DNA of 64,000 nt, from NCBI GenBank assembly GCA_029237735.1, contig JAQZBU010000003.1:1-64000 (forward strand). Direction: 5' to 3'. Numbering within the stretch: the stretch's first letter is position 1; each line of letters opens with the position of its first letter. Of the stretch, positions 23,291 through 49,701 are shown one piece after another. Source of the stretch: Ramlibacter sp. (GTDB lineage Bacteria > Pseudomonadota > Gammaproteobacteria > Burkholderiales > Burkholderiaceae_C). Position numbers and translations under genes: made by a program. The notes under the pieces were generated by a model, which made no database searches, was not told the origin of the DNA, and saw nothing but the letters and a program-made list of their open reading frames with translations.

Positions 23291-24454
23291 ATGACGTATA
23301 TGACCGACGTGGTCGAGCTCACGCGGCAGCTGGTCCGAATGGAGACCATCAATCCGCCCGGCCAGGAAGAGGAATGCGCCCGATGGCTCTCAGGCTTTCT
23401 GCGCGACATCGGCTTTAAGGCAGAGCTCATTCCTTTCGGCCCGGGCCGGTATAACCTGGTGGCAGACCTGCGCGGTACGGGCGCGGGCAAATTGCTCGCC
23501 TTCTCAGGCCACATGGACACCGTCCCCCTAGGCCGGGCAGCTTGGAACGTGGACCCGTTCGCAGGCGAGATTCGCGAAGGCCGGTTGTACGGGCGCGGCG
23601 CGACCGACATGAAGTCAGGCATCGCGGCTTTCCTGGTGGCTTGCATTCAGTCAAGGGACGTGATTGATGCTTCGGCAGGCGTTCGCATCCTGCTGACGGG
23701 AGGGGAAGAGACCGGTTGTGACGGCGCACGTGCAATCCGAGAGCGCCTGCCTGGCTATCTTGACAACGTTGGCGCGCTAATCGTCGGCGAACCAACTCAG
23801 AATTATCCATTCGTAGGGCACAAGGGCGCGCTATGGCTGCGAGGCGCCGCCCAAGGGATCGCTGCGCACGGCGCGATGCCGGAAGCCGGAGATAACGCGA
23901 TCTACAAGATCGTAGACGCCATCGACAGACTGCGGAAGTTCGCGTTGGTGCACCAGCATCCGTTGATGGGCGGGGCTTCGATGAATGTCGGCACCGTCTC
24001 CGGCGGCCTGAATGTCAACTCGGTGCCGGATGCGGCGCGCTTCGAGGTCGATCTTCGAACTGTCCCCGGAATGGAGCACGCCAAGCTCCGCAACGAGCTA
24101 GCGACCCTGCTCGGAGACGATGTGCAGCTGTCTGCGTTCGCCGACGTTCCTCCTCTTGAGACGAGCGAAACGCATCCGTGGTTGCAACGCGTATTCGCGT
24201 GTTGCGCGCCCGAATGCGGACAGATCATCCCAAAAGTGGTGCCCTACTCGGATGGCAGCGTCCTCGTTTCCGACTCGAGTGTGCCGGTCGTCATCCTTGG
24301 GCCTGGCGAGCCTCAGACCATGCATAAGACGGACGAATACTGCCGCGTTGACCGCTTGTACGAGGGAGTGCGGGTCTATGGACGCATTCTTCACGACTGG
24401 CAGGACGGATCAGTAAACGCCTCCGGCGCCCCTGTGTTCGCCGTCGCCAACTGA
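23291..24454 (+). CDS. M20 family metallo-amidohydrolase/deacylase (ArgE/DapE type)
   Basis: A cytoplasmic zinc hydrolase of 387 residues that would cleave an N-acyl amino acid or a small amide. The first metal motif is SGHMDTVPLG, followed by YGRGATDMKSGIAAF, then TGGEETGCDGA with the catalytic Glu pair, GEPT, and the C-terminal HKTDEYCRVDRL. The dimerisation domain is in the middle. The start at 23291 has an AGGGAAAT ribosome-binding site; the frame is open 15 codons further upstream. As the first gene of the island, next to a permease for N-heterocycles, it fits deacylation or deformylation of an N-acylated glycine. The substrate is inference; acetylornithine or succinyl-diaminopimelate are less likely in this context. 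Confidence 0.85.
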   Translation: MTYMTDVVELTRQLVRMETINPPGQEEECARWLSGFLRDIGFKAELIPFGPGRYNLVADLRGTGAGKLLAFSGHMDTVPLGRAAWNVDPFAGEIREGRLYGRGATDMKSGIAAFLVACIQSRDVIDASAGVRILLTGGEETGCDGARAIRERLPGYLDNVGALIVGEPTQNYPFVGHKGALWLRGAAQGIAAHGAMPEAGDNAIYKIVDAIDRLRKFALVHQHPLMGGASMNVGTVSGGLNVNSVPDAARFEVDLRTVPGMEHAKLRNELATLLGDDVQLSAFADVPPLETSETHPWLQRVFACCAPECGQIIPKVVPYSDGSVLVSDSSVPVVILGPGEPQTMHKTDEYCRVDRLYEGVRVYGRILHDWQDGSVNASGAPVFAVAN

Positions 24455-24549
24455 TTCCAGTTCGGAACGATCCCTTTTTGGCGCGCATTATGCTTAACTT
24501 GAGCAGCTGTAAACACACTTGACCGTTCCACCAACCGGAGATTGACCCC

Positions 24550-25986
24550 ATGCAAGCAGACCTGAAGGCAGGCGACGTCGTCCTGCCGCGCGATACTAGC
24601 CACGTCGAGTCACACGGCGTAGACATTATTCCACCTCAGGCGCGGCACTCATCGCCCAAGGACGTTTTCTACGTCTTCCTGGGTTCCCAGATGTGCTTCG
24701 GAATCATCGTAATTGGCGCGTTGCCCGTCGTCTTTGGCCTAAGCTTTTGGGCTTCCCTCACATCTATCACGGTTGGCCTCGGTCTCGGGTCCATCTTATT
24801 CGGGTTGCTCGCTCCCTTCGGCGCCAAGACGGGAACGAACGGCCCCGTGGCGAGCGGTGCCCACTTCGGTGTGAACGGGAAGGCGATTGGCACCGTTATG
24901 GGCGTACTAGTTACGCTGGGCTTCTATGCGCTGACGGTCTGGACGGGGGGCGAGGCGGTAATCGCCGCAGGTAGCCGGCTGTTCGGGTGGCAGTCCACAC
25001 CCGACCTGCTCTTTGCCGGTGCTGCGGTCATTGGTGTACTTACGGTGGCTGCCGCCATCTTCGGGCATGGGCTGATCGTGAAATCCGAGACATTCGTGAG
25101 TTACGTAATCGCAGGCACCCTCATGATTGCAGCAATCTCCCTCGCCCCCGGCTTCGACGCCGCTTATCCGGGGACCGGCAAGTTTGCAGCGGGATCATTC
25201 TGGCCGACGTGGCTGCTCGCGAGCAGCATCTGCGCAGCGCTTCCGATCTCCTACGCAACCATCCTGAACGACTACACCCGCTACCTCCCTGAAACGACCC
25301 GCACATCGCGGGCCGTATGGGCGGCGAGCGGAGGCATGTTCGTTGGCTGCTGGCTTGCCCTCTCCTTTGCCGCGTACGTCACCACGATCTTTAAGAGCCC
25401 CGACGCTCCCTTCGTTTCCGGTTTGATAGGGCTGCTTCCGATCTGGCTGGTTCTCGTGTTCGCGTTTGTCGGCATCGTCGGCAGCCAACCTCAGGGGAGC
25501 CTCTGCCTCTACCATGGTGGTCTTGGTATGCAGAGCTTGGCGCCGCGGACGAGCCGGGTGGCGTGGACGGTCCTGCAAAGCGTTGCTGGGATGATCCTCG
25601 TGTGGGCTGGTATCTATCTTGCAAACATGACGGATTTGCTGATCGCCTTTCTGACGCTGATCGAGTGCGCGGTGTCGCCCTGGCTCGCCATCAACGTTGT
25701 GGGGTACTTCTTGGTCGCGAAGGGCAAATACGCCCCCCATCAACTACTCGTGAGCAATCAGAGTAGCCAATACTGGTACTCCGGCGGATGGAACATACAA
25801 GCGCTGGTCTCATGGGCGGCCGGCACGATCGTGGGCCTGCTTTTTGCCGAAACGGCCGTGTTCAACGGGCCGCTCGGTGGATTCACCGGCGGAACCAACG
25901 CCGCCTGGCTGCTGGCGGGCATCGCTGGCGCCATCCTCTATCTAATTCTGCAAAACAAGTCAGTCCGACGCGACCTGGCACCCTAA
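24550..25986 (+). CDS. NCS1 family permease (cytosine/purine/hydantoin/allantoin type)
   Basis: An inner-membrane symporter of 478 residues, 11-12 hydrophobic helices. FGLLAPFGAKTGTNGPVASGAHFG resembles the substrate-binding loop of NCS1 proteins, and the later ISYATILNDYTRYLPE matches the conserved helix 6 region of CodB-like members. Known cargoes of the family are cytosine, allantoin, hydantoins, thiamine and uracil, all small N-heterocycles. Only 11 bases separate it from the monooxygenase alpha subunit gene, so it is very likely the importer for the substrate of that enzyme. Confidence 0.87.
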   Translation: MQADLKAGDVVLPRDTSHVESHGVDIIPPQARHSSPKDVFYVFLGSQMCFGIIVIGALPVVFGLSFWASLTSITVGLGLGSILFGLLAPFGAKTGTNGPVASGAHFGVNGKAIGTVMGVLVTLGFYALTVWTGGEAVIAAGSRLFGWQSTPDLLFAGAAVIGVLTVAAAIFGHGLIVKSETFVSYVIAGTLMIAAISLAPGFDAAYPGTGKFAAGSFWPTWLLASSICAALPISYATILNDYTRYLPETTRTSRAVWAASGGMFVGCWLALSFAAYVTTIFKSPDAPFVSGLIGLLPIWLVLVFAFVGIVGSQPQGSLCLYHGGLGMQSLAPRTSRVAWTVLQSVAGMILVWAGIYLANMTDLLIAFLTLIECAVSPWLAINVVGYFLVAKGKYAPHQLLVSNQSSQYWYSGGWNIQALVSWAAGTIVGLLFAETAVFNGPLGGFTGGTNAAWLLAGIAGAILYLILQNKSVRRDLAP

Positions 25987-25997: not shown

Positions 25998-27488
25998 ATG
26001 ATGCTTAACAATTCAGATTGGTACGACTTGGCCCGCGAGACAAACTGGACACCGACGTACGTGGAGGAGGCTGACCTCTTCCCGCGCGAGATCAGTGACC
26101 CATACGACATCCCGGTGACGGAGTGGGAGAAGTTCGACGAGCCATACAAGGTGACCTACCGCGACTACGTCCGTACCCAGCGTGAGAAGGACGTCGGCGC
26201 GTATTCTATTAAGTCGGCCTTGGACCGTGTGTCGTTCTACAAGAGCGCAGATCCTGGGTGGAAGGCGCTGTTGCAACTGCATTTCGGCGCGATCCCCTTT
26301 GTCGAATACGGCTCCGTCTCGGCTTTTGCGCGGATGACTCGGTTTGGCCGCGGGCCTGGCATGCGGAACATGGCCTCCTTTGGCACCTTGGACGAAATCC
26401 GCCACACGCAGATTCAGATGTTCTTCGGCTACGAGTTCCTCAGTGTGGACCGCGCATTCGACTGGGCGCACAAGGCCCCGAACACGGACAACTGGGTGGT
26501 GATCAGCGAGCGCCATACGTTCGACGACGTGGAGCACACGCGTGACGCAGTAAGCGCTGCCATCATGACCAACTTTTCCTTCGAGCAGGGCTTCACGAAC
26601 CTACAGTTCATCGCGCTTTCAGCGGACGCGAAGCGCAACGGGGACCATAGCTTCTCCGCCATGCTGCAGACCGTCCAGTCCGACGAAGCGCGGCACGCGC
26701 AGATCGGTGAGCCGCTGCTCGAGATCATGATCGAGAACGGTAAGCTGGCTGAAGCCCAGCGCCTGGTCGACATCTCCTTCTGGCGGGTCTGGAAGCAATT
26801 CTCCGCACTCAGCGGGGTGGGGATGGACTACTACACGCCATTGGCAAAGCGCGAGCACTCGCTGAAGGAGTTCGTGGAGGAGTTCGTCTGCCAGCAGTTC
26901 TCGCGCAACCTCAAAGCCCTCGGCCTAGACAAGCCTTGGTACTGGGATGAGCACTTCCTTCCAGACATAGAGACGTACCACCACGCGCAGCACCTCGGGA
27001 TGTACTTGTACCGCAAGACCGGCTGGTGGAACCCGGTCGCCGGAGTCGGTCCTGCGGAGCGGGAGTGGCTCGAGAAGAAGTATCCGGGCTGGAACGAGAC
27101 GTTTGGTGAAGTCTGGGACGTGATCACCGAGTCCATCCTCTCTGGACAGCTGGACAAGACGGAGCCCTCCGTGCTTCCGATGATCTGCAACATGTCGGGC
27201 CTGGAGCTTTCGGGCGTCCCCGGTAAGAAGTGGAACGTGAAGTCCCATTTTGTGGACCTGGATGGGCGTCGCTATCACTTCGGTTCCGCCGTGGACAAAT
27301 GGATCTTCGAACTGGAGCCGAGCCGCTACCGCAGCCACAAGAGCCTAGTGGACCGCTTCGTGTCCGGCGTTATCCCGCAAGGTGATGATGCCGTGTACGA
27401 GTACATGGGCATGGCTCCCGAGGAACGTGGCCGCTGCGCCGAAGACTTCGCCTGGGCCGAGGCATTCCGAAACAGAAAGGTCGCCTGA
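25998..27488 (+). CDS. Diiron monooxygenase hydroxylase alpha subunit (TmoA-like)
   Basis: The catalytic subunit of a soluble bacterial multicomponent monooxygenase, 496 residues, about the length of toluene-4-monooxygenase TmoA. All six iron ligands are in place with a one-residue offset to TmoA: Glu103, Glu133, His136, Glu196, Glu230, His233 (motifs FVEYGS, DEIRH, FEQGF, DEARH). Thr200 and Gln227 equivalents are kept. The active-site strand before Glu103 reads AIPFVE instead of the TmoA residues IAVGE, and Ser106 replaces Ala107, so the pocket is altered and probably smaller. It would insert one oxygen atom into a C-H bond, using electrons from the Rieske protein and reductase encoded nearby. 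ATGATG start; AAAGGAG precedes it. Confidence 0.95.
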   Translation: MMLNNSDWYDLARETNWTPTYVEEADLFPREISDPYDIPVTEWEKFDEPYKVTYRDYVRTQREKDVGAYSIKSALDRVSFYKSADPGWKALLQLHFGAIPFVEYGSVSAFARMTRFGRGPGMRNMASFGTLDEIRHTQIQMFFGYEFLSVDRAFDWAHKAPNTDNWVVISERHTFDDVEHTRDAVSAAIMTNFSFEQGFTNLQFIALSADAKRNGDHSFSAMLQTVQSDEARHAQIGEPLLEIMIENGKLAEAQRLVDISFWRVWKQFSALSGVGMDYYTPLAKREHSLKEFVEEFVCQQFSRNLKALGLDKPWYWDEHFLPDIETYHHAQHLGMYLYRKTGWWNPVAGVGPAEREWLEKKYPGWNETFGEVWDVITESILSGQLDKTEPSVLPMICNMSGLELSGVPGKKWNVKSHFVDLDGRRYHFGSAVDKWIFELEPSRYRSHKSLVDRFVSGVIPQGDDAVYEYMGMAPEERGRCAEDFAWAEAFRNRKVA

Positions 27489-27523: not shown

Positions 27524-27784
27524 ATGGCAAGCTTTCCGCTCGTATGTAATTTCCAGGGCGACTATGGCATGAAACTGCTGATGGTCGACACCGGCGACAC
27601 GATGGACACTGTCGCCGAAAAGGCAAAGGGAGCGCTGGTAGGCGTCGTGGTCAAGGCGCCGCAGCACGGAGCCGTGCTACGCGTGAGTCGTCACGGCGAG
27701 CGGGAGTTCCTTCCGCGCAATCTCCGGGTTTCCGATGCACGTTTCGTGCAGATGGAAGCGGTCGACATCCAGGTCGAGAGCTGA
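27524..27784 (+). CDS. Monooxygenase hydroxylase gamma subunit (TmoB-like)
   Basis: An 86-residue ubiquitin-like fold protein. FPLVCNFQGDYGMKLLMVDTGDTMDTVAEKAK, followed by VLRVSRHGEREFLPRNLRVSD, aligns over its full length with TmoB/TouB. It forms the third subunit of the hydroxylase (alpha-beta-gamma)2. It lies 35 bases after the alpha subunit gene with an AAGGA-like ribosome-binding site. Confidence 0.92.
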   Translation: MASFPLVCNFQGDYGMKLLMVDTGDTMDTVAEKAKGALVGVVVKAPQHGAVLRVSRHGEREFLPRNLRVSDARFVQMEAVDIQVES

Positions 27785-27829: not shown

Positions 27830-28183
27830 GTGTTCGAAAGAGTCTGTACAACCGACGACGTCTGGGTAGGCGAGCTGATCGCCTTCGACGTCGCATCACG
27901 CAAAATCATCCTGATTAACGTGGAAGACAAGTTCCACGCATATGATGCGCAGTGCCCGCACCAGGACCAGTCGCTCTGCGAGGGGAGCCTCGAGGGAACG
28001 GTGCTTACGTGTCCTGCGCACCAGTGGCAGTTTGACGTGACCACCGGGCTTGGAGTCAATCCCACCGGCTGCAAGCTCAAGGCCTACGCCCTGAAGATCG
28101 AGGCGGACGAGATTTATGTCGACGCCGAGCAAACCCCCGAAAAACCGAAACAACATGAGCCATCCCATGAGCATCATCAGTGA
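27830..28183 (+). CDS. Rieske [2Fe-2S] ferredoxin of the monooxygenase (TmoC-like)
   Basis: A 117-residue electron carrier between reductase and hydroxylase. The Rieske ligands are Cys42-Pro-His44 and Cys61-x-x-His64 (CPHQDQSLC, CPAHQWQF). It has an unusual charged, His-rich tail (TPEKPKQHEPSHEHHQ) not seen in TmoC. The start is GTG at 27830. A Rieske protein, rather than direct reduction as in methane monooxygenase, places the system in the four-component (toluene/alkene monooxygenase) class. Confidence 0.94.
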   Translation: MFERVCTTDDVWVGELIAFDVASRKIILINVEDKFHAYDAQCPHQDQSLCEGSLEGTVLTCPAHQWQFDVTTGLGVNPTGCKLKAYALKIEADEIYVDAEQTPEKPKQHEPSHEHHQ

Positions 28184-28472
28184 AGAGCCGGATTTCGTCG
28201 GCCCGATCATCACAATCGGCGAGATCGCCGATGCGGCTGTCGAGGCCGCAGAACTGGACAACCCTGGCCGCGAAATCCGCGTAACCGAGGGTCCTTCTTA
28301 CATCCGCCTAGAGGCACGCGGCGAGATCGCGTTATCGACTTGCAACATGTCGCAGGCCTTGGGCAGGCCCTTTCACATGGGCGAGCTCGAGAAGAACATG
28401 CCGGGGTTTTCCGGTTTCATCCGAATGGGCTCCGATCGCGTCAAATTCGTCGCGTCGAAGACAAATAAGTAG
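28155..28472 (+). CDS. Monooxygenase effector/coupling protein (TmoD/MmoB-like)
   Basis: A 105-residue cofactor-free effector. FVGPIITIGEIADAAVEAAELDNPGREIRVTEGPSYIRLEARG is the effector-family core, and QALGRPFHMGELEKNMPGFSGFI is its C-terminal helix and strand. It binds the hydroxylase near the diiron site and controls O2 activation and coupling. The start at 28155 (MSHPMSIIS) overlaps the end of the Rieske gene; the frame is open from 28116 but that part is out of family. Confidence 0.92.
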   Translation: MSHPMSIISEEPDFVGPIITIGEIADAAVEAAELDNPGREIRVTEGPSYIRLEARGEIALSTCNMSQALGRPFHMGELEKNMPGFSGFIRMGSDRVKFVASKTNK

Positions 28473-28506: not shown

Positions 28507-29499
28507 ATGAACAACCCTGTCCAAGCACCTCAGTCCAAGGGCCTGAAGACCTGGAGCGCGCTACTCAGCACAAAAAAGCGCCCTAGCGAATACGAGATCG
28601 TCACCCATGGGCTGCACTATCGCAACCGCAATCCTGAGGCGCCGTACGAGCTCGACTCCAAGTTGATGATGAACGAGTGGTACAAGAAGCACGTCTTTGG
28701 CAGCCCTCTGAAGCACGCCGACTGGAACAAGTTTCGCGATCCTGACCAGGTCACGTATCGTGGCTACATGACGATGCAGGACGGGCAGGAGGAGTACGTT
28801 GACGGGCTGCTGCGCGAGCATGCCGCACGCTCGCATGACAAGGACTTGAGCGCCGAGTGGGTAAAGGTGCTGGGTGAGCTGTATACGCCGCTGCGCTATC
28901 TCGGCGCCGCGATGCAGATGGAGATGGCCTATGTCGTTCAGATGGCCCCAGCAAGCACCGTCACGAACTGCGCCGCTTTTCAAGAGGCCGACTCGACGCG
29001 GTGGATGTCTCGTGTCGCTTACCGAACGCGCGAACTCGCCAACGCGCATGCGGGCGCGGGGTTTGGCGAAAACGAGCGCAAGATGTGGGAACACCTCCCC
29101 GCTTGGCAGGGCGTACGCGAAGGGGTCGAGAAGATGTTGGCGACATACGACTGGGCCGAAAACCTCTTGGTCGCGAACCTCATCGTGATTCGCAGCGCGG
29201 AGGAGTGCATGCGCCAACTGGCGCAAGCTGCCCGGCAGCACCATGACTCGCTGACTGGCATGCTGCTGGAGGCGCAATTGCGCGACGGTGAGCGCTCGCG
29301 CCGCTGGACGCAACGTCTAGTCGAATTGGCGCTCGAAACCGAAGGCAACCGCGCGGTGATTGGCGGTTGGATCGAGAAGTGGCTTCCCTTGGGCCATAAG
29401 GCGATCGAGAGCTACTGCGCCGCTGTGCCGATGCCTGATGCAGCAAGGGAAGCCAAGAAGGGTTTGACGACCTTTCACTCCTCCTTGAACCTGACCTGA
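28507..29499 (+). CDS. Monooxygenase hydroxylase beta subunit (TmoE-like)
   Basis: A 330-residue ferritin-like helical subunit without iron ligands. LKTWSALLSTKKRPSEYEIVTHGLHY, WNKFRDPDQVTYRGYM and the middle LRYLGAAMQMEMAYVVQMAP are characteristic of TmoE/TouE. It completes the hydroxylase and scaffolds the alpha subunit. It is the last gene of the A-B-C-D-E block; the reductase normally following as F is displaced 4.5 kb downstream. Confidence 0.94.
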   Translation: MNNPVQAPQSKGLKTWSALLSTKKRPSEYEIVTHGLHYRNRNPEAPYELDSKLMMNEWYKKHVFGSPLKHADWNKFRDPDQVTYRGYMTMQDGQEEYVDGLLREHAARSHDKDLSAEWVKVLGELYTPLRYLGAAMQMEMAYVVQMAPASTVTNCAAFQEADSTRWMSRVAYRTRELANAHAGAGFGENERKMWEHLPAWQGVREGVEKMLATYDWAENLLVANLIVIRSAEECMRQLAQAARQHHDSLTGMLLEAQLRDGERSRRWTQRLVELALETEGNRAVIGGWIEKWLPLGHKAIESYCAAVPMPDAAREAKKGLTTFHSSLNLT

Positions 29500-29513: not shown

Positions 29514-30731
29514 ATGGACTCTGTGACAAGTATGTCAAAGCGAGCAGCCTTCGCGCTCGGCGGAAGTTCCGCCTTTGGCGGGTTTCCGATGGCGCTGCGA
29601 GTTGGCGACACCCTCTACATCGGTTCGCAGCACAAGGCAAGTTCCGGGTTGGCTACCGAGGCGGACATCGCCGCCCGGACGCACTCGGCATTCTCCAGCC
29701 TGGTGACTACTTTGGAGGCCGCAGGTCTGACGATGTCAGACCTGATGAAGCTGCACACGTACTACGTGTTTAATGGTGAGGGGCCTGACGTCACGGGTTT
29801 CTGGGAGCGTATGACGGACGTGCGGTTGCGTTACCTCGCCAACCCTGGCCCGGCGGCAACGGCCTTGCGCGTTGCGGGTAGCCCTACACGTGGCGAGCTC
29901 ATCACCATTGACGGGATCGCGACGTTCTCCCAAGCGCGCACGCGGTTGATGCCGGCGCATGCGTGGGACTGGAGCATCCCGACTCCCTTCTCCCAAGGGT
30001 GGAAGGTCGGCAAAAAGGTGTACGTCGGCGGGCAGGTCTCCGCGGACCGGAAAGGCAAGGCAGTTGCCGCCTGGGACGCCGAGCAGCAGACGCGGAACAC
30101 CCTGGAATACATCCGCCATGTCCTTCTCGAGGCGGGTGGTTCGTGGAGCGACGTGGTGTCGCTGAAGGTGGCCTATCGACATGACGGGCGGGACCTCGAA
30201 GCTCGGGAACTGCTGGCCAAGATCCTGTCGATCGTGAGGGAAAGCTTGCCGCAGCCAGGTCCGGCGCTCACCTGCATCGGTGTCGACCTGATTTACGAGG
30301 GTCTGGTGCTGGAGATCGACGCGGTGGCCGTTCTCGGCGAAAAGCGACAGGACATCACTGCATCCGGCAGCGACAACTGGGTTTCGGTGCCGGGCTTCGC
30401 AGCAGGCACAAGCGTCGGTGACGAGGTTTACATCGGCGGGACGTCCGCGCCAGGCGCCGCTTCTTTGGTCGCACAAGCGGAAGCATCAATGGAGCGGATG
30501 CTCAGGGTCCTGGCCTCTGCCGACGGCGACGCCGACGAGCTGGTGAAATTGAACGTTTTCTATCGCGGCGAGGACCACACGGACTCGGACGAGGTGAAAC
30601 AGATCGCTCGCATCGCTGGTGAGTACCTTCAGGAACGTCGTCCGGTGCTGAGCATCATTCGCGTGCCGGGACTGCCGCACGACGGACAGCGAGTGCAGGT
30701 CGACGGTGTGGCCGTTAGGGCCCTTGTATAA
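29514..30731 (+). CDS. Triple-domain RidA (YjgF/YER057c) protein
   Basis: A 405-residue protein made of three tandem RidA-like domains at about 15-138, 145-275 and 280-403. Each shows the same pattern: a YIGSQ/YVGGQ/YIGGT strand, then DLMKLHTYY, DVVSLKVAY and ELVKLNVFY, and an ending TIDGIA, EIDAVA and VDGVAV. Standard RidA proteins have about 130 residues and trimerise, so this chain mimics a trimer. The Arg of canonical imine deaminases (PARS motif) is replaced in all three copies (PAAT, PALT, PVLS). A role on a ring-derived imine or enamine intermediate is inferred from position between monooxygenase and hydrolase. Confidence 0.88.
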   Translation: MDSVTSMSKRAAFALGGSSAFGGFPMALRVGDTLYIGSQHKASSGLATEADIAARTHSAFSSLVTTLEAAGLTMSDLMKLHTYYVFNGEGPDVTGFWERMTDVRLRYLANPGPAATALRVAGSPTRGELITIDGIATFSQARTRLMPAHAWDWSIPTPFSQGWKVGKKVYVGGQVSADRKGKAVAAWDAEQQTRNTLEYIRHVLLEAGGSWSDVVSLKVAYRHDGRDLEARELLAKILSIVRESLPQPGPALTCIGVDLIYEGLVLEIDAVAVLGEKRQDITASGSDNWVSVPGFAAGTSVGDEVYIGGTSAPGAASLVAQAEASMERMLRVLASADGDADELVKLNVFYRGEDHTDSDEVKQIARIAGEYLQERRPVLSIIRVPGLPHDGQRVQVDGVAVRALV

Positions 30732-30753
30732 CTCTGTTGAACAGGAGATATCA

Positions 30754-31683
30754 ATGATCAAAAATCCGGTACCCTGGCCGAATGGCGCCCGATGCGCAGT
30801 GGTCTTCACTTGGGACATGGACTCCGACTCCATCTTGCACTTAGCGCACCCCAACGATGCTGACACGCGCCTCTCGACAAATTCAATGCTTCGCTACGGA
30901 CCGGAAATCGGGGTTCCGCGGATCATCGACACCTGCCGCGATTTTGGCATGAAGCACACGTTCTTCGTGCCGGGCTGGTGCGCCGAGCAGTTTCCAAAAG
31001 CCGTCGAACAGATGGTCGAGGCGGGTCACGAGGTGGCGCTGCATGGGTACTTGCACGAGTATCCCAACGAGCTGACCCAGGAAGAGGAGCGGTTCTGGAC
31101 CCACAAGGGCACGGAAGCTATCGCCAAGATTTCTGGTACGCGGCCGCGAGGCTATCGGTCCCCCTGGTACAAGTATTCCAAGCACTCGACGGACGTGTTG
31201 CTCGACGAGGGATTCCTCTGGGACACTTCCCTGATGGGCGATGACGTTCCTTACTTGGTTGAGTCCAAGAAGCGGGCCTCGGGACAGAGCCTCGTGGAAC
31301 TGCCTTCTCGCTGGCAGCTCGACGACTGGCCGCAGTTTGTGCACAACCACGACCTAGACTTCATGATGCCGATTGCCTCGCCGCAATACGCCATGGACGT
31401 GTACATGGCTGAGTTTTATGCCATGTGGGAGCACGGTGGCGTGTGGGTGAACTGCTTCCATCCCTTCTGTACTGGGCAGGTCGCGCGCATGATGATGTTG
31501 CGGGAGATGATGTCCAAAATGCAGGCCAAGGGCGACGTGTGGTTCGCCACCGGCGAAGAGGTGGCGCTGCACGTCCAGAAAGTGATTGCGGCCGGAACCT
31601 ATAAGCCGCGCGTCGATCGCGTTCCTTTCTATGAAGGCCGGCTACCTGAGCTGGAGCCGGGCTACGCCATGAAGTCACGCTGA
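30754..31683 (+). CDS. PuuE-like polysaccharide-deacetylase-fold hydrolase
   Basis: A NodB-fold metal hydrolase of 309 residues without signal peptide, so cytoplasmic and not a cell-wall deacetylase. TWDMDSDS (19-26) gives the first Asp, HGYLH (97-101) the HxxxH pair, GYRSPWYKYS (133-142) the substrate loop. PWPNGARCAVVFTW and the overall plan resemble the PuuE allantoinase and Helicobacter HP0310-like groups, which act on cyclic amides or imidates. AGGAG precedes ATG 30754. In this operon ring opening of a hydroxylated heterocycle (a lactam or imidazolone-type amide) is the likely job; the exact substrate is inference. Confidence 0.85.
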   Translation: MIKNPVPWPNGARCAVVFTWDMDSDSILHLAHPNDADTRLSTNSMLRYGPEIGVPRIIDTCRDFGMKHTFFVPGWCAEQFPKAVEQMVEAGHEVALHGYLHEYPNELTQEEERFWTHKGTEAIAKISGTRPRGYRSPWYKYSKHSTDVLLDEGFLWDTSLMGDDVPYLVESKKRASGQSLVELPSRWQLDDWPQFVHNHDLDFMMPIASPQYAMDVYMAEFYAMWEHGGVWVNCFHPFCTGQVARMMMLREMMSKMQAKGDVWFATGEEVALHVQKVIAAGTYKPRVDRVPFYEGRLPELEPGYAMKSR

Positions 31684-41299: not shown

Positions 41300-42679
41300 A
41301 TGTCCGTTAGCGTATTGGATTTGTTCAAGATCGGCATCGGCCCCTCGAGTTCTCACACGGTGGGTCCGATGCGTGCGGCGCGAACCTTTGCCGACAATCT
41401 ACGGGAACGCGGATTGTTGGAGCAGGTCGCACGCGTGTGTGCGGAGCTGTACGGCTCGCTCGGCGCGACGGGCAAGGGGCACGGGTCGGATGTCGCGATC
41501 CTGCTAGGGCTCGAGGGCGAAACGCCCGACGAGGTGAACACAGAAAGCGTTCCGCTGCGCGTGGCAGCGATTCGCGAGAATAGGCGCATCCGGATTCTCG
41601 GCAAACGCGAGATTTCGTTCGATGAGAAAGCCGACGTGTTAATGTACCGGCGCGAAAGCCTTCCTCTCCATCCAAACGGCATGCGCTTCACTGCGTATGA
41701 CGCGGCTGGGAACGTGCTGCATGCACGGGTGTACTACTCGGTGGGTGGCGGTTTCGTCTTGGACGAGTCTGCCGCGGCGGGCTCACGGATCATCGAGGAC
41801 CCACGGCAGCTGCAGCATCCATTTAACAGTGGAGTCGAACTGCTGGCGCGTTGCCGCGAGACTGGCCTGCCTATCAGTGCGCTCATGATGGACAACGAAC
41901 TAGCTTGGCGCCCCGCCGAGGAGACACGGGCCGCGCTCCTGCGGATCTGGAGCGTCATGGAGGACTGCGTCCGCCGCGGTTGCCGCAACGAAGGCGTGAT
42001 GCCGGGTGGCCTGCGAGTCCGGCGCCGGGCCGCCGATATGTACCGATCGCTGACAAGCCGTCCGGAGGCGGGCTTGCGCGATCCGTTGAGCGTAATTGAC
42101 TGGGTCAACCTCTATGCGCTGGCAGTCAACGAGGAAAACGCGACCGGCGGCCGCGTAGTAACTGCGCCCACCAATGGTGCGGCAGGCATCGTGCCCGCGG
42201 TGCTGCACTACTACACGCGGTTCGTTCCGGGCGCCAATGAGGATGGTGTTGTGCGCTTCCTGCTCACCTCGGCGGCCATCGGCATTCTCTACAAGCAGAA
42301 CGCCTCGATCTCAGGCGCTGAGGTCGGCTGCCAAGGCGAGGTGGGCGTAGCTTGCTCAATGGCGGCAGGAGGACTGGCGGAAGTGCTCGGAGGCACGGTC
42401 GCCCAGGTGGAGAACGCGGCGGAGATTGGGATGGAGCACAACCTGGGTCTGACCTGCGATCCGGTTGGCGGATTGGTGCAGGTGCCGTGCATCGAGCGCA
42501 ATGCCATGGGCTCGGTGAAGGCCATCAACGCGGCGCGCATAGCGCTGCAAGGTGACGGCAGTCATTTCGTCTCGCTGGACCAGGTGATCAAGACCATGCG
42601 CGAGACCGGCGCCGACATGATGGTCAAGTACAAGGAAACCTCCCGGGGAGGCTTGGCCGTTAACGTAATTGAGTGCTGA
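41300..42679 (+). CDS. sdaA: L-serine ammonia-lyase (iron-sulfur type)
   Basis: A single-chain serine dehydratase of 459 residues that turns serine to pyruvate and ammonia, closing the route from glycine to central metabolism. [20 protein letters not shown] is the N-terminal domain start; the Fe-S Cys residues are in [18 protein letters not shown] and [21 protein letters not shown] at 41291 is in frame three codons upstream, but ATG 41300 has an AGGTGA ribosome-binding site six bases before it. A clear catabolic enzyme next to glyA. Confidence 0.95.
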
Positions 42680-42692
42680 AAGAGCAATTGCC

Positions 42693-43820
42693 GTGAATAA
42701 CATCCATCCGACCCATCTTGCGCGAACCGCATTGCATGAACTGCATGTCGAACTCGGTGCGCGCATGGTGCCCTTTGCGGGGTATTCAATGCCCGTGCAG
42801 TACCGCGACGGCATCCTGAAGGAACATCTGCACACGCGGTCCCAAGCCGGACTTTTCGACGTGTCGCACATGGGCCAAGTGCGCCTTTCGGGTCCGAACG
42901 CTGCAGCCGCCCTGGAGGCACTTGTTCCTGTGGATGTGTTGGATCTTCCCGTCGGGCAGCAGCGCTATGCCCTGTTCACCAATGATGCTGGCGGCGTGAT
43001 GGACGACCTGATGGTGGCAAACTTCGGCGATTTCCTGCTTGTCGTGGTGAACGCTGCCTGCAAGCAGCAGGACATCGCGCACATGCAGGAGCGTATTGGC
43101 GAGCACGCCCGCATCGAAGTCCTGGTGGACCGCTCATTGCTGGCAATCCAAGGCCCGGCCGCGTCGAAGGTAATGGCTAGGCTGGCGCCGCAGCTTGAGA
43201 AAATGGTCTTCATGGCCGTGGCCACGGTGCGGTTGGCCGGGGTCCAATGCATGGTCAGCCGTTCGGGCTACACGGGCGAGGATGGGTACGAGATCTCCGT
43301 TCCGTCCACATCCGCGATGGATCTGGCCTGCGAGCTGCTACGGCACCCGGAGGTGAAAGCCATCGGGCTCGGTGCGCGCGACTCCCTGCGGCTTGAAGCG
43401 GGCTTGTGCCTGTACGGGCACGATCTCGATGCGGAAACGACGCCGGTGGAAAGCAGCCTGTTGTGGGCGCTTTCCAAGTCGCGCAGAGCCGACGGCGCGC
43501 GCCCCGGAGGCTATCCGGGGGCGGAGCGGATCCTGGCGCAGATCAAGGAAGGCGTGCAGCGCAAAAGAGTCGGCCTGCTCACGAAGGATAGGACGCCTGT
43601 GCGGGATGGCGTGGAGGTCATGGATGAAAGCGGGCAGCGCGTCGGCACCGTCACCAGCGGCGGTTTCGGACCGACGCTCAATGCACCGGTCGCAATGGGC
43701 TATGTCCAGGCGCGGCTGGCGCAGCCCGGGACCGTTCTCCATGCGGTGGTTCGCGGGAGGAAGGTTCCCATGGAGGTCGCACGTACTCCGTTTGTCCCGC
43801 AGCGCTACTACCGGGGCTGA
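42693..43820 (+). CDS. gcvT: Glycine cleavage system T protein (aminomethyltransferase)
   Basis: A 375-residue enzyme transferring the methylene carbon from the aminomethyl-lipoyl GcvH to THF, releasing ammonia. ELGARMVPFAGYSMPVQY, FDVSHMGQVRLSG and GYTGEDGYEISV are the signatures, and LGARDSLRLEAGLCLYG contains the folate-binding region. The GTG start at 42693 is preferred; a TTG at 42669 in the same frame overlaps the sdaA end. It completes the T, H, P set in this operon. Confidence 0.94.
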   Translation: MNNIHPTHLARTALHELHVELGARMVPFAGYSMPVQYRDGILKEHLHTRSQAGLFDVSHMGQVRLSGPNAAAALEALVPVDVLDLPVGQQRYALFTNDAGGVMDDLMVANFGDFLLVVVNAACKQQDIAHMQERIGEHARIEVLVDRSLLAIQGPAASKVMARLAPQLEKMVFMAVATVRLAGVQCMVSRSGYTGEDGYEISVPSTSAMDLACELLRHPEVKAIGLGARDSLRLEAGLCLYGHDLDAETTPVESSLLWALSKSRRADGARPGGYPGAERILAQIKEGVQRKRVGLLTKDRTPVRDGVEVMDESGQRVGTVTSGGFGPTLNAPVAMGYVQARLAQPGTVLHAVVRGRKVPMEVARTPFVPQRYYRG

Positions 43821-43823: not shown

Positions 43824-44912
43824 GTGAAGCAAGTTCCCAATACTGATGGCCTAGTAGCGGATTCGGCACCTGCGAGCCATTCCCACGCGGGCACCAAGCT
43901 CCGTGGAGCCGAGAAGCTTGCCCGAATTCCCGTGAAGGTCATGCGCAGTGATCCCAGGCACCTGCTGCGCAAGCCAGAATGGATCCGGATGCCTTCCGGG
44001 GCGGCCACAGAGGTGGCGCGCATCAAGAAATCGCTGCGCGAAAAGCGGTTGCACACTGTGTGTGAAGAGGCCGCATGTCCGAACCTGAAGGAGTGCTTCG
44101 GGCACGGTACCGCCACCTTTATGATCATGGGGGACATCTGCACCCGACGCTGCCCCTTCTGCGAGGTAGGCCATGGTCGGCCGCTGCCGCTTGATCCGCA
44201 GGAACCCCAAAACTTGGCTGAAGCCATCCAAGCAATGGGGCTCAAGTACGTGGTGATCACGTCAGTCGATCGCGACGATCTGCGCGACGGGGGAGCCGCC
44301 CATTTCGCAATGTGCATCCAGCTGACGCGCCGCCTAAACCCTTCGATCGTCATCGAAATCTTGGCGCCGGACTTTCGGGGCAGAGCTGATACGGCACTGG
44401 ACATCCTGCGTGAGTCTCCACCCAACGTGTTCAACCACAACATCGAAACGGTGCCGCGCCTGTACCGCGAGGTGCGGCCAGGCGCCGACTACCAGCAATC
44501 TCTCGAGTTGCTGCGGCGCTTCGGCGAACGGCATCCCGGCCTGCCGACGAAGTCTGGGTTGATGCTGGGGCTCGGTGAGACAAGTATAGAGGTCGAGCAG
44601 GTGATGTGCGACGTGCGAGCTCACGGCGTGAGCGTGCTCACGCTCGGCCAGTACCTGCAGCCCAGCCTGCATCATCTTCCGGTGCAACGCTACGTTCATC
44701 CGACAGAATTTGATCGGCTGCACCAAGTTGGCATGTCGATCGGCTTCAAGCACGTCGCATCCGGACCGATGGTGCGGTCGTCCTACCACGCCGACGTGCA
44801 GGCGTCCGCACTGGTGAGTGGCGCCGCGTCCAGTCAAGGCTCGGGGGCACCGTCCGTACACCCACTCGCGGTCGGGCCGTTCAACACTTCTGCCGGGGAC
44901 CCTCATGGGTGA
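43824..44912 (+). CDS. lipA: Lipoyl synthase
   Basis: A radical-SAM enzyme of 362 residues that inserts sulfur into octanoyl-H protein to make lipoyl. The auxiliary cluster has [12 protein letters not shown], the radical SAM cluster [21 protein letters not shown] and the ending SSYHADVQA are typical. It carries an unusual C-terminal Ser/Ala/Gly-rich extension of about 30 residues. A dedicated lipA inside a glycine cleavage operon is unusual and would supply the lipoyl group for the extra GcvH. Its end overlaps the formate dehydrogenase beta gene by 8 bases. Confidence 0.93.
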
Positions 44913-46581
44913 CACCGTCGCGCCGCTGCGCTTTCATCCGCGTTCCACGCCAAAGGGGCGCCAAGCCGACGATTCCTCTCGCGGCGCCGTGCACGACTCC
45001 TGTGCTGGTCTGGAGCCCAGCCGAGACCTGCTCATTGAGCACCTGCATAGGCTCCAGGACTGCTTGGGTGCGCTGTCCCGCCCGCACTTGGTTGCGCTCG
45101 CGGAACGACTGAAGATGGCGCAGGCCGAGGTCTACGAAGTCGCAACGTTCTACGACCACTTTGAGGTGGTGGATGATTTGCGAGAAGCATCTCGGGTGAC
45201 GGTGCGTGTCTGCACCAGCCTGCCGTGCGCAATGGCAGGCAGTGAACGGCTTCTCGCGGCCGTGCGGGCGCAGCCGGGCGTGCGCTTCAAGCCGGCGCCC
45301 TGTCTCGGGCGCTGCCATCAGGCACCAGCTGCGTGCATTGGCCAGCACGAGATGGGGCATGCCACGGCGGTGGCCATTGACGATGCGCTGGCGCAAGGTG
45401 ACACTGGGGCTCGTCCTCTGCCGCACGCCACGCGTCTCCAGGAGTACACCGCCCTCGGCGGCTACCAGCTACTCGCGGCCTGTCATCGCGGAGACCGGCC
45501 TCCCGAATCCGTCATCACGGAACTCGAGGAGGCCGGCCTGCGCGGGCTGGGCGGGGCAGGCTTTCCCGCCGCACGCAAGTGGCGCACAGTCGCAGCGCAG
45601 TTGGCGCCACGCCATATGGTGGTGAACATCGACGAGGGCGAGGTCGGCACCTTCAAGGACGGACATCTGCTGGCCACGGACCCACATCGCGTGCTGGAGG
45701 GGGCACTCATTGCCGCTTGGGCGGTGGGTGCCGAGAGGATCTGGTTGTACGTGCGGGATGAATACCATGCCGCCCGCAATCTGCTGGTGCAGGAAGTTGC
45801 CGCGTTGCAGGAGCGACCGCCCGTAGGAAACCTGCCCGCCATCGAGATCCGTCGCGGCGCCGGAGCGTACATCTGCGGGGAAGAGTCAGCGCTGATCGAG
45901 TCGATTGAGGGCAAGCGCGGATGGCCTCGGCTGCGGCCCCCGATCGTTGCCCAAGTCGGCGTCTTCGGGAGGCCGACACTGGCGCACAACCTGGAGACAA
46001 TGTGGTGGATCCGTGACGTCGTGGAGGGCGGGGGTGCCGCCTGGGCGGCCCGCGGGCGGCGCGGACGCACCGGCTTGCGCCGCTTTTCGGTGTCCGGGCG
46101 CGTGGCGCGCCCGGGCGTTCACCTTGCACCAGCGGGAATCACGTTACGCGAGTTGATTGAGGAGCATGCCGGCGGCATGCTGCCGGGACACGAACTCTAT
46201 GGGTTCCTGCCCGGCGGGGCATCAGGAGGCATCCTTCCCGCCACTGCGGCGGATGTTCCCCTGGACTTCGACACCCTGGCCGAGTACGGTGCCTTCGTCG
46301 GTTCGATGGGGGTAATCGTGCTGTCGCAGCATGACCGGGCGCGCGATGCGGCGGCCAACCTGATGAGTTTTTTTGAGCACGAGAGCTGCGGTCAGTGCAC
46401 TCCCTGCCGGGAAGGCACCCGCCAGGCTTCTCTGCTGATGGCGCAACGCGATTGGGACACAGATCTGATGGCTGATATCTCCAACGTAATGCGCGATGCT
46501 TCGATCTGCGGCCTGGGGCAGGCCGCCCCTAATCCAATGGACAGCGTCGTCCGCTTCTTCCGCCATGAAATTCAGTCTTGA
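44905..46581 (+). CDS. NAD-dependent formate dehydrogenase diaphorase subunit (NuoE-NuoF type fusion)
   Basis: A 558-residue FMN/Fe-S protein that passes electrons from the formate-oxidising subunit to NAD+. Residues about 30-165 are a NuoE/FdsG-like thioredoxin-fold [2Fe-2S] part ([22 protein letters not shown]); residues 190-555 are NuoF/FdsB-like, with [45 protein letters not shown] and the 4Fe-4S ligands [11 protein letters not shown]. In Cupriavidus-type FdsGBACD these are two separate chains; here they are fused. It overlaps lipA by 8 bases and the next subunit by 17. Confidence 0.92.
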
Positions 46582-49300
46582 CGACCGCGAGGTCGAAGTA
46601 CGGGACGGTGAGTCCATCTGGTCCGCGGCCGAACGTGCGGGCGTCTCCATCCCCCGCCTGTGCCACAAGCCAGGCTACCCTGCAGCCGGCAATTGCCGCG
46701 CATGTGTGGTGGAAATCGAGGGCGAGCGCGTGTTGGCAGCGTCGTGCTGCCGTACCGCACAACCCGGAATGAAGGTGAAGTCAAGCTCGACGCGCGCAGT
46801 ACGGGCACAGAAAGCCGTGCTGGAGTTGCTTCTTGCCGCCGCTGGGGACACGCGGAAGCTCAAACATGACAGCGAGCTGGGCGCTTGGGCCGACCGCCTG
46901 CAGGTCGTGTCCCGTTACGCGGCTCGCGCCGAAGCGCCGGCAGTGGATCGGTCGCATGCCGCCATGACGGTGGACCTTTCGGCATGCATTCAATGCACCC
47001 GCTGCGTGCGGGCCTGCCGCACTGAGCAGGTGAATGACGTGATTGGCATGGCCGGCCGGGGCTCCAGATCGACAGTGGTGTTCGACCAAGGTGATCTGAT
47101 GGGCGACAGCACGTGCGTGGGCTGCGGCGAGTGCGTGCAGGCTTGTCCTACCGGCGCGCTGGCGCCCGCCAATGGTTCATACGCACGCCCCGCGCAGAAG
47201 ACGGTGGACTCAGTCTGCCCCTACTGTGGGGTCGGCTGCCAAGTTACATACCACGTGGAAAACGAGCGCATCGTGCGCGTGGATGGCCGTGACGGCAGCG
47301 CCAATGAAAGCCGCCTGTGCGTTAAGGGCCGATTCGGCTACGACTACATCCATCATCCAGGGCGGCTGACGGTTCCGCTCGTGCGTAAGCAGAACGTCCC
47401 GAAGGACCCATGCCGCGTAAGCGTGGGGGACTGGCGCGAGCTGTTTCGAGAGGCGTCTTGGGACGAGGCGCTCGAGCTCGCCGCAAACGGACTCAGCCGC
47501 ATTCGTGACCGACATGGCCCCGCGGCTCTCGCCGGCTTCGGCAGCGCCAAGGGCACAAACGAGGAGGCGTACCTGTTCCAGAAGTTGGTGCGCACAGGTT
47601 TTGGCAGCAACAACGTTGATCACTGCACCCGCTTGTGCCACGCCTCCAGCGTCGCTGCGCTGATGGAAGGGATTGGTTCCGGCGCGGTCAGCAATCCGGT
47701 GCGCGATGTCGAGCTCGCCGAGGTGGTGCTGGTGATCGGTGCCAACCCGACCGTGAACCACCCCGTTGCCGCAACATGGATGAAGAATGCCGCGCAGCGC
47801 GGCGTGCGCTTCGTGCTGGCCGATCCGCGTCGTACCGACCTAGCCCGCCACGCATGGAAAGTGCTTCAGTTCAACGCTGACACCGACATCGCCTTGCTTA
47901 ACGCACTGGTGCATGCGGTGATCGACGAAGGGCTGGAGAACAGGGAATTTCTGCGCGATAGAGCATCAGCTTACGAAGAGTTGAGGCGCCACGTCCGAAA
48001 CTACAGTCCGGAAGCCATGGCACCCATCTGCGGCGTCGACGCGACGACGCTTCGGGAGGTCGCACGGGCGTTTGCGACGTCCGGCGGATCCATGATCCTG
48101 TGGGGCATGGGAGTGAGCCAGCACGTGCACGGCACAGACAATGCGCGTGCGCTGATCGCGCTCTGCCTGGTGACGGGCCAAATCGGCCGTCCCGGCACGG
48201 GCTTGCACCCGCTGCGAGGGCAGAACAACGTGCAAGGTGCGAGCGATGCGGGCCTGATTCCGATGATGCTGCCGGACTACAGCTCGGTGGGTGATCCTGA
48301 GGCGCGTGGCCGTTTCGAGGCATCGTGGGGCGTTGCGCTTGACCCTACACCGGGGCTGACCGTAGTGGAAGTGATCGACGCAGCACACGACGGGCTCGTA
48401 CGCGGCATGTACGTTGAAGGCGAGAATCCCGCCATGAGCGACCCCGATGCGCAACACGCTCGCGAGGCGCTCGCGAGGCTCGAACATCTGGTGGTCCAGG
48501 ACATCTTCCTCACCGAGACGGCTGCGCTGGCCGATGTTATTCTGCCTGCGACCGCTTGGCCGGAAAAGACCGGCACCGTCACGAACACGGACCGGTGCGT
48601 GCAGCTCGGGCGCCAGGCACTGCAGCCGCCCGGACAAGCGAAAGCAGACTTGTGGCTGATCGCACAGATGGGTCGCCGGCTGGGATTGGACTGGCAGCTC
48701 GAGATCGACCCGAGCGGAGGCGAAGGCGGCGTTGCGGCAGTGTATGAAGAGATGCGTTCTCTCATGCCTTCGCTGCGCGGTATCAGCTGGCGCCGTTTGG
48801 TACGTGATGGCTCAGCGACATATCCTTGCGAAACCGAAGACCAACCCGGCAATCGAGTCGTGTTCACCAAGACCTTCCCGACTTGGGACGGGCGTGCCCG
48901 CTTGGTGCCGGCAACGCTGACGTTTGCGGCCGAGCGGCCGGATGAGGAGTTCCCGCTGGTGCTGATCACCGGACGGCAGCTCGAGCACTGGCACACCGGG
49001 ACGATGACGCGGCGCTCCAGCGCGCTCGATGCGCTGGAGCCTGCGCCCACGGTGAGCATCCACCCCTCGCTGCTGCGCCGCCTGCGTGCACGCACCGGCG
49101 AAATGCTCATCGTCGAGTCGCGCCGGGGGCGCATCAGCCTGATCGCGCGGGCCGACGAGGGCGTTCCGGAGGACGCGGTGTTTATCCCGTTTGCTTACGC
49201 TGAAGCCGCGGCCAACCTGCTCACCAACCCCGCGCTGGACCCGGAAGCAAAGATAGCAGAGGTCAAGTATTGCGCCGTTCGCGTGCGGAGCGAGCGATGA
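46565..49300 (+). CDS. Formate dehydrogenase, molybdopterin catalytic subunit (FdsA/FdhF-like)
   Basis: A 911-residue Mo (or W)-bis-MGD enzyme oxidising formate to CO2. It has an N-terminal plant-type [2Fe-2S] domain (HKPGYPAAGNCRACVVEIEG), a second cluster region (CIQCTRCVRACRTEQ), a ferredoxin pair (CVGCGECVQACPTGAL) and the proximal cluster CPYCGVGCQVTY. The active-site metal ligand is Cys358 in DHCTRLCHASS, so it is a cysteine, not selenocysteine, enzyme. GQNNVQGASDAG and WPEKTGTVTNTDR are typical of the family. No FdhD/FdsC maturation gene follows. It would dispose of formate made by the pathway. Confidence 0.93.
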   Translation: MKFSLDDREVEVRDGESIWSAAERAGVSIPRLCHKPGYPAAGNCRACVVEIEGERVLAASCCRTAQPGMKVKSSSTRAVRAQKAVLELLLAAAGDTRKLKHDSELGAWADRLQVVSRYAARAEAPAVDRSHAAMTVDLSACIQCTRCVRACRTEQVNDVIGMAGRGSRSTVVFDQGDLMGDSTCVGCGECVQACPTGALAPANGSYARPAQKTVDSVCPYCGVGCQVTYHVENERIVRVDGRDGSANESRLCVKGRFGYDYIHHPGRLTVPLVRKQNVPKDPCRVSVGDWRELFREASWDEALELAANGLSRIRDRHGPAALAGFGSAKGTNEEAYLFQKLVRTGFGSNNVDHCTRLCHASSVAALMEGIGSGAVSNPVRDVELAEVVLVIGANPTVNHPVAATWMKNAAQRGVRFVLADPRRTDLARHAWKVLQFNADTDIALLNALVHAVIDEGLENREFLRDRASAYEELRRHVRNYSPEAMAPICGVDATTLREVARAFATSGGSMILWGMGVSQHVHGTDNARALIALCLVTGQIGRPGTGLHPLRGQNNVQGASDAGLIPMMLPDYSSVGDPEARGRFEASWGVALDPTPGLTVVEVIDAAHDGLVRGMYVEGENPAMSDPDAQHAREALARLEHLVVQDIFLTETAALADVILPATAWPEKTGTVTNTDRCVQLGRQALQPPGQAKADLWLIAQMGRRLGLDWQLEIDPSGGEGGVAAVYEEMRSLMPSLRGISWRRLVRDGSATYPCETEDQPGNRVVFTKTFPTWDGRARLVPATLTFAAERPDEEFPLVLITGRQLEHWHTGTMTRRSSALDALEPAPTVSIHPSLLRRLRARTGEMLIVESRRGRISLIARADEGVPEDAVFIPFAYAEAAANLLTNPALDPEAKIAEVKYCAVRVRSER

Positions 49301-49701
49301 AGACTGTGCTTGCTATTACCGAGCCCGTGGTCGTGCAACGCTTCGGGTGGCAGGTCCTGCACATTGCCGGACTGCGGTTCGACGCAATGCTGGGTGTGCT
49401 TTCTCATGAGAAGCTGTCTCCGCAGCCGGTGTCGGTTGACGCGGAACTCCACCTGGGCTCGCAACCCATGTTTCCCCGTGACGATGACATCATGAACGTG
49501 ATGGACTACCGCCAAGTGCGGCGGATCATCCTCGACGAGTGCACATCCGGTCACGTGAACCTTTTGGAAACCCTTATTGGGAAGGTGGCGCACACCCTGC
49601 TGCAGCTGCCAGGTGTGCGAGGGGTGCGGCTGAAGATCGTCAAATTGGAGATTTTCGATGATTGCGAAGTGTCCATCCGCATGGAGCTTGGGCAATGGTG
49701 A
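49297..49701 (+). CDS. Dihydroneopterin aldolase family protein (FolB-like)
   Basis: A 134-residue FolB-type protein. LHIAGLRFDAMLGVLSHEKLSPQPVSVDAEL and HVNLLETLIGKVAHTLL match the FolB fold, and LKIVKLEIF supplies the Lys near the active site. FolB makes the pterin precursor of THF. The overlap with the formate dehydrogenase gene (ATGA) and position at the end of a one-carbon cluster suggest boosted THF synthesis for the glycine cleavage module, but a different pterin-related role is possible. It is the last gene of the island. Confidence 0.85.
   Translation: MKTVLAITEPVVVQRFGWQVLHIAGLRFDAMLGVLSHEKLSPQPVSVDAELHLGSQPMFPRDDDIMNVMDYRQVRRIILDECTSGHVNLLETLIGKVAHTLLQLPGVRGVRLKIVKLEIFDDCEVSIRMELGQW

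Follow-up and report, generated by a model that had tools for sequence, protein, structure and literature searches.

What is broken down by a bacterium in which the genes of a four-component diiron monooxygenase (Tmo) stand ahead of genes for consuming glycine and formate? This question is raised by an island at positions 23291-49701 of a 64,000-nucleotide stretch of a Ramlibacter sp. contig (JAQZBU010000003.1, positions 1 to 64,000), referred to below as the window. A prediction made earlier from the letters of the window had read the island as one for the catabolism of a small azole, and the genes that it named are all present as open reading frames where it had placed them (open reading frame listing and Pfam); the genes for U109 (an uncharacterised 109-residue protein), a CobW-type GTPase, a helix-turn-helix (HTH)-cupin regulator and a LysR regulator were absent from it. 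The island consists mainly of two plus-strand runs with operon-like spacing: an upper run of 14 genes, from an M20 hydrolase to a tautomerase (23291-35290, neighbours being spaced by -68 to +95 bp), and a lower run of nine, from gcvH to folB (36446-49701, where the spacing is -95 to +44 bp). We find that the cluster formed by the upper run is real, mobile, conserved and catabolic. On balance, both operons probably encode a single route for degrading a small polar N-heterocycle. This would be a five-membered ring that carries an unsubstituted C-H, and imidazole is the most likely candidate.

Recurrence of the upper cluster and its glycine genes

Exact 8-residue stretches of TmoA, the hydroxylase alpha subunit, were searched for in a genome collection which by its own description covers 84,980 species, a procedure that would miss more diverged relatives. 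This yielded 14 loci, the content of which was scored by tblastn with the window proteins (E <= 1e-6). Together with loci in Pusillimonas caeni (L011), Zavarzinia aquatilis (L012), a Pseudomonadota metagenome-assembled genome (MAG; L013), Sneathiella litorea (L014) and a Rhodospirillales MAG (L023), the window makes six related loci from several families, and in all six Tmo, a triple Rid-domain protein (Rid3), a PuuE-like hydrolase and M20 occur together, the M20 homologue lying inside or next to the cluster in each. U109, CobW and the HTH-cupin regulator are each found in four of the six and the NCS1 permease in three (window, L011 and L013); two further loci carry NMT1-type ATP-binding cassette (ABC) genes on the side of tmoA, L012 on the same strand and L014 on the opposite one, and L023 begins within tmoA. 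The window reductase is 69% identical to that of L013 and 27-28% identical to those that follow tmoE in L011, L012, L014 and L023. The tautomerase has no match at this threshold in the other five loci, of which L013 stops before the corresponding place. None of Rid3, PuuE-like and M20 was matched in the eight farther Tmo loci (L016-L022 and L024); three of these (L017, L021 and L024) count for less because they end 0-1.4 kb beyond the last Tmo match, the other five reaching 7.8-8.0 kb past it. The L015 contig spans 4 kb, which does not suffice for judging its cluster content.

Island-type TmoA is rare. Besides the window, a match was found in one of 60 relatives (43% identical, E <= 1e-60) and in one of 398 genomes of the order (55% identical, E <= 1e-165). 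Similarly, PuuE at E <= 1e-90 was matched among 250 genomes of the P. caeni family in P. caeni itself only, and Rid3 at E <= 1e-60 among 25 genomes of the S. litorea order in S. litorea itself only. Among plasmid records, the best TmoA match has 53.7% identity, eight records match the triple Rid protein and no copy of the island was seen, all of this among the matches listed, some of whose neighbourhoods were opened.

In P. caeni, the gene order is gcvT-gcvH-gcvP-glyA-sdaA-HTHcupin-(polyketide-cyclase-like)-NCS1-TmoABCDE-reductase-Rid3-PuuE-U109-CobW-M20, followed on the other strand by a UvrD/Rep-type helicase gene (named by eye), so that glyA-sdaA and the upper cluster fill the ~15.4 kb between gcvP and the helicase gene. 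In the congener G506, the counterparts of gcvP (77% identity) and of the helicase gene (88% identity) converge tail to tail, separated by 75 bp that hold no gene. Thus, glyA-sdaA and the upper cluster travelled together in this second lineage, the block being inserted directly behind the resident gcvP; no other GcvP was found in P. caeni. A second congener (G474) is uninformative here, since the search around its gcvP did not reveal the helicase gene. A search at E <= 1e-100 gave two GlyA genes in P. caeni and a single one in either congener. The second P. caeni GlyA is 94-96% identical to the congener copies, the island copy 60%; the window GlyA, in turn, shares 75% identity with the island copy of P. 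caeni, against 61-63% with the housekeeping copies of P. caeni and the two congeners.

The window is arranged differently, with the glycine genes downstream of the Tmo cluster and with a full gcvHPT set, which together with glyA and sdaA forms one run (36446-43820), a catabolic glycine-to-pyruvate module. Two arrangements in two lineages point to function rather than chance, and the coupling of the upper cluster to glycine/serine use is supported. The order of genes in this run is that of the Pseudomonas glycine-utilisation operon gcvH2-gcvP2-glyA2-sdaA-gcvT2, from which the island differs by the additional lipA, fdhBA, folB and LysR genes and by its position behind a Tmo cluster. Elsewhere in the Ramlibacter genome, two contigs carry further GcvP sequences with 65% and 54% identity to the island GcvP, and another contig an FdhA 66% identical to that of the island, so that the island copies of gcvP and fdhA look additional.

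The monooxygenase and the hydrolases

All six parts of a four-component diiron monooxygenase (alpha, beta and gamma subunits, Rieske protein, effector and reductase) were matched by Pfam. TmoA is 53% identical to TouA and, in the alignment with TouA, keeps the residues E103, E133, H136, E196, E230 and H233 at the six diiron-ligand positions. In a TmoA tree of 18 rows (built without L021 and without plasmid matches other than L007 and L008), the six rows defined by cluster content have a support of 100/100 alone and, joined by L015, form one side of a branch with a support of 98/96. TouA lies apart from the window TmoA, grouping with L016, L019, L020 and L022 (97/97), and the TmoA of Aromatoleum toluvorans falls in this TouA group (97/97). 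The island rows also differ at two TouA positions which, in published mutagenesis of toluene monooxygenases, reportedly line the substrate pocket. All five island rows that include position 107 have Ser there, and 11 of the 12 other rows have Ala, the exception being L015, which joins the island clade; at position 180, Glu is found in L015 and in four of the six island rows, Cys or Ala in Sneathiella-type loci. Compared with the toluene-4-, toluene/o-xylene and isoprene monooxygenases (for the component make-up of the last, see the cited part of PMC9004368), the island enzyme is alike in having all six components and the diiron-ligand residues, and unlike in its separate TmoA clade, its changed positions 107 and 180 and the importer and amide hydrolases that stand in place of hydrocarbon pathway genes. 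No flavin monooxygenase was found by Pfam among the genes of 23291-35290. As a separate observation, two tandem TmoA genes lie on one alphaproteobacterial MAG contig (L017:5205-8942).

The PuuE-like hydrolase has as sequence relatives in the PDB 3rxz, 3qbu and the PuuE allantoinase 3cl6, and conserves in 6/6 loci one Asp and an HxxxH motif. Cyclic imidases are counted in the PuuE group in the cited parts of PMC9304392 and PMC3084791. The trio of PuuE, U109 and CobW genes also occurs, in the stretches opened, without Tmo, namely in Rhizobium johnstonii pRL12 and in a Roseateles plasmid (Table 1; the neighbourhoods of two of 58 plasmid records with U109 were opened). The three proteins probably act as a unit, in which CobW and U109 would serve the metal loading of PuuE. 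The AlphaFold2 model of U109 has a mean predicted local distance difference test score of 69.8 and no Foldseek match at E <= 0.001, and its structure gives no function. As for M20, three of the five plasmid neighbourhoods opened hold an N-carbamoyl-D-amino acid hydrolase, hydantoinases or TenA, which fits small N-acyl or N-carbamoyl substrates; the other two, one of them from the ~50% identical Pantoea group, do not fit.

A candidate route and its alternatives

From these comparisons we infer a substrate, enzyme assignments beyond the family level and a role for formate, as follows. NCS1 would import the heterocycle, and the diiron monooxygenase would convert imidazole with O2 and NADH to imidazol-4-one. 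This cyclic amide would be opened with water to N-formiminoglycine by the PuuE-like enzyme, in whose maturation U109 and CobW probably take part, and from N-formiminoglycine the triple Rid protein may assist or perform the hydrolytic loss of NH3, giving N-formylglycine. M20, as a putative N-formylglycine deformylase, would then release glycine and formate with a further water. GcvHPT, GlyA and SdaA would turn two glycines into pyruvate, with LipA lipoylating GcvH, and the presumably NAD-linked formate dehydrogenase would oxidise formate, regaining one NADH for each NADH used by the oxygenase. Each proposed step balances for imidazole by computation.

The histamine route of Pseudomonas offers a parallel. 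In the cited parts of PMC8231116 and PMC6467879, it comprises the FAD monooxygenase HinF, the enamine deaminase HinL, the amidase HinH and the amidase HinG (EC 3.5.1.8), which convert imidazole-4-acetate to aspartate. By published gene class, hinFLHG has counterparts in the island for its monooxygenase, its two amidases and, if Rid3 acts in this way, its Rid-type enamine deaminase, and it turns an imidazole ring into an amino acid, as proposed for the island. However, HinF is an FAD monooxygenase whereas the island has a four-component diiron enzyme, and the outlet is aspartate in one case and, judged by the outlet genes, glycine/serine in the other. No hin locus was recognised among 369 genomes of the class searched with PuuE and with Rid domain 2; besides the window, the PuuE search gave only G981 (42%, next to ABC transporter genes) and the Rid search only G901 (34%, its neighbours not being Pfam-scanned).

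The lower half has its own counterpart in purinolytic clostridia, where, according to the cited part of PMC3519856, formiminoglycine is converted to glycine, which is then handled by Gcv, GlyA and serine dehydratase; formate dehydrogenase is used as well. As outlined there, the purine fermentation of Clostridium acidurici uses the same lower enzymes and, on our reading, the same intermediate, but unlike the island it is anaerobic, relies on tetrahydrofolate-dependent formimino transfer and has no oxygenase. The same part states that the clostridial genes leading from the imidazole intermediate to formiminoglycine had not been identified when that paper was written.

Similar gene sets are found on plasmids. 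In Arthrobacter, a set of ~13.5 kb on plasmid NicSoilE8-1 (L004:4816-18184) holds NCS1, alanine dehydrogenase, a molybdopterin formate dehydrogenase, a flavin reductase, an HpaB monooxygenase, a cyclase-family hydrolase, Rid, an HTH-cupin homologue and an M20 fusion. It follows the same logic as the island, with alanine instead of glycine, and one may speculate that it perhaps serves a methylimidazole. A second, neighbouring plasmid set of Arthrobacter sp. NicSoilE8 (L076:11132-20942) has an annotated formate dehydrogenase and a flavin reductase. On a plasmid of Aminobacter niigataensis DMFA1 (L061:6412-10786), an HpaB monooxygenase, a PuuE-like protein, M20 and a flavin reductase lie in one run, which again combines an oxygenase with a hydrolase of the ring-opening kind. 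For imidazole catabolic genes or the Tmo-glycine combination we found no relevant literature, most subscription papers being outside the scope of this search, and novelty is unproven. Together, the importers, the separate TmoA clade with its changed positions and the gene-class parallel with hin support N-heterocycle catabolism. To that extent the azole proposal made earlier holds, its substrate and exact steps being tentative.

Several observations weigh against the imidazole route as drawn. Firstly, gcv genes adjoin the cluster in only 2/6 loci: gcvP is on another contig in L012 and more than 400 kb off in L014, and the contigs of L013 and L023 end too early for adjacency to be judged. Secondly, a formate dehydrogenase adjoins the cluster in the window only (1/6). 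Elsewhere in the genome, FdhA is 37-38% identical in P. caeni and Zavarzinia and 58% identical, more than 500 kb away, in Sneathiella, and the genomes of L013 and L023 have no match at E <= 1e-50. Thus, of the coupling claimed in the original prediction between an oxygenase half and a glycine and formate module, the glycine part is supported by the P. caeni arrangement and its empty site and the formate part, being confined to the window, is the weaker. The prediction had also named a lack of co-conservation of the two halves as grounds for rejection; glyA-sdaA are conserved with the cluster in P. caeni, the gcv genes only to the degree just given. Thirdly, tblastn detected neither U109 nor CobW in L014 and L023, and substrates may differ across the TmoA clade because position 180 varies (Glu, Cys, Ala). 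Fourthly, the PuuE-like protein and M20 are likened to HinH and HinG by role only. As to the Rid-type step of the hin route, the island has three Rid domains, of which domain 2 lacks the imine-hydrolysis Arg, having Leu where four aligned PDB relatives have this Arg of the PAR motif; domains 1 and 3, judged by eye, also appear to be without it. That Arg is needed for imine hydrolysis by RidA and is missing in Rid4-Rid7, whose function is given as unknown in the cited part of PMC4433059. Its sequence thus does not justify describing Rid3 simply as an imine deaminase. Finally, the plasmid neighbourhoods of Rid or PuuE homologues in L005, L006, L060 and L063 show neither an oxygenase nor an azole-like logic.

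Two further genes touch on the fate of the one-carbon product. A formate-tetrahydrofolate ligase gene 233 bp upstream of the L015 TmoA, which is sister to the island clade (L015:614-4050), was considered as a third formate link and not counted, because L018, which lies outside the clade, also has such a gene near Tmo, in a housekeeping-looking neighbourhood; the vicinity of this gene may be a landing site. In Zavarzinia, an FmdA/AmdA-family amidase and a Phenol_MetA_deg porin adjoin the cluster (L012:2964-5169). As this amidase family has no match at E <= 0.001 in four of the six genomes, formamide as the product is an option only.

Three other explanations were weighed. It is unlikely that C2 is oxidised as well, or that the substrate is hydantoin or imidazolidinone, with the formate dehydrogenase being incidental. 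PuuE would then yield N-carbamoylglycine, and M20, as a carbamoylase, glycine, CO2 and ammonia, in line with the allantoinase and cyclic imidases among the PuuE relatives, with the ~44% identical M20 relatives that adjoin N-carbamoyl-D-amino acid hydrolase and hydantoinases, with one PuuE relative near a hydantoinase/carbamoylase family amidase and with the five loci of six in which, within the stretches examined, no formate dehydrogenase is adjacent. However, hydantoin itself needs no oxygenase, and the formate dehydrogenases of the window lower operon and of the Arthrobacter set would be left unexplained. We consider it still less probable that the substrate is another small N-ring yielding glycine or a closely related amino acid (for instance N-methylimidazole, oxazole, thiazole or pyrazine, perhaps varying by member): the variation at position 180 and the amidase and porin beside the Zavarzinia cluster would agree with this, but imidazole can be accounted for by a single monooxygenation and three hydrolyses, with no need of further enzymes, a matter of consistency rather than proof. 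Lastly, oxidation of an aromatic or alkene hydrocarbon by Tmo, with the hydrolases and glycine genes serving other pathways, has the toluene/o-xylene monooxygenase type of the component set and the TouA identity in its favour but is very improbable, given that Rid3, PuuE-like and M20 accompany Tmo in all six loci, that Pfam shows no hydrocarbon-pathway genes in the upper run, that importer genes are present and that glyA-sdaA moved with the Tmo cluster in P. caeni.

As to the imidazole route itself, we tentatively propose that the island may be a horizontally moving, self-contained unit for aerobic imidazole mineralisation, built from a repurposed diiron monooxygenase, three hydrolases and its own disposal of serine/glycine and formate. 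This fuller picture is plausible but somewhat doubtful.

Layout, surroundings and implications

Gene calls (Table 1) rest on the open reading frame listing and Pfam scans, with NCBIfam/TIGR models supporting gcvT in addition and identifying lipA. The true start of GcvH probably lies downstream of 36446, because its GCV_H domain begins at residue 81.

Table 1. Genes of the island in the window, and PuuE-U109-CobW triads found with or without Tmo
Feature	Position	Strand	Family match
M20 (ArgE/DapE-type) hydrolase	23291..24454	+	PF01546, PF07687
NCS1 permease	24550..25986	+	PF02133 (6e-53)
TmoA, diiron hydroxylase alpha subunit	25998..27488	+	PF02332
TmoB, hydroxylase gamma subunit	27524..27784	+	PF06234
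TmoC, Rieske ferredoxin	27830..28183	+	PF00355
TmoD, coupling/effector protein (start codon uncertain)	28116..28472	+	PF02406
TmoE, hydroxylase beta subunit	28507..29499	+	PF02332
Rid3, triple Rid-domain protein	29514..30731	+	PF01042 (three stretches)
PuuE-like hydrolase, polysaccharide-deacetylase fold	30706..31683	+	PF01522
U109, uncharacterised, 109 aa, starts MCGLC	31700..32029	+	no Pfam match
CobW-type GTPase, probable metallochaperone	32026..33156	+	PF02492, PF07683
HTH-cupin regulator, probably of the upper operon	33153..33923	+	PF01381, PF07883
2Fe-2S/FAD/NAD reductase (TmoF role)	33896..35038	+	PF00111, PF00970, PF00175
4-Oxalocrotonate-tautomerase-like protein	35048..35290	+	PF01361
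LysR regulator, between both runs, divergent from the lower operon	35566..36552	-	PF00126, PF03466
GcvH	36446..37057	+	PF01597
GcvP, glycine decarboxylase	37102..39999	+	PF02347
GlyA	40028..41290	+	PF00464
SdaA, L-serine dehydratase	41291..42679	+	PF03313, PF03315
GcvT	42669..43820	+	PF01571; NCBIfam gcvT above cut-off
LipA, lipoyl synthase	43824..44912	+	TIGR00510 above cut-off
NuoE/NuoF-like fusion, presumed NADH-linked formate dehydrogenase subunit	44818..46581	+	PF01512, PF01257
Molybdopterin formate dehydrogenase, catalytic subunit	46496..49300	+	PF00384, PF01568, PF04879
FolB-like dihydroneopterin aldolase	49270..49701	+	PF02152
PuuE-U109-CobW triad, window	30706-33156
PuuE-U109-CobW triads, plasmids	L077:7107-9366; L078:7064-9399

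Mean GC content at third codon positions is 0.74 for the 24 island genes and 0.86 for 16 hand-picked flanking genes, which is consistent with a foreign origin of the island. An Rfam scan of 20000-58000 gave no match at the gathering score, hence no glycine riboswitch was found. Fragments of an AMP-binding protein (133 aa, 22646-23047) and of a dienelactone hydrolase (161 aa, 55929-56414) flank the island and are possible scars of past rearrangement. Directly downstream (49990-55817) lies a set of LysR, methylaspartate ammonia-lyase, TctC receptor, MmgE/PrpD and major facilitator superfamily genes, apparently a separate catabolic unit.

If the imidazole route is correct, genes would be named for the aerobic breakdown of unsubstituted imidazole-type rings, and four-component diiron monooxygenases, known from the use of toluene and isoprene, would prove to have been recruited for polar N-heterocycles. 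The island would then also provide a gene set for tracking azole pollutants, and a series of enzymes that includes a route to formiminoglycine.

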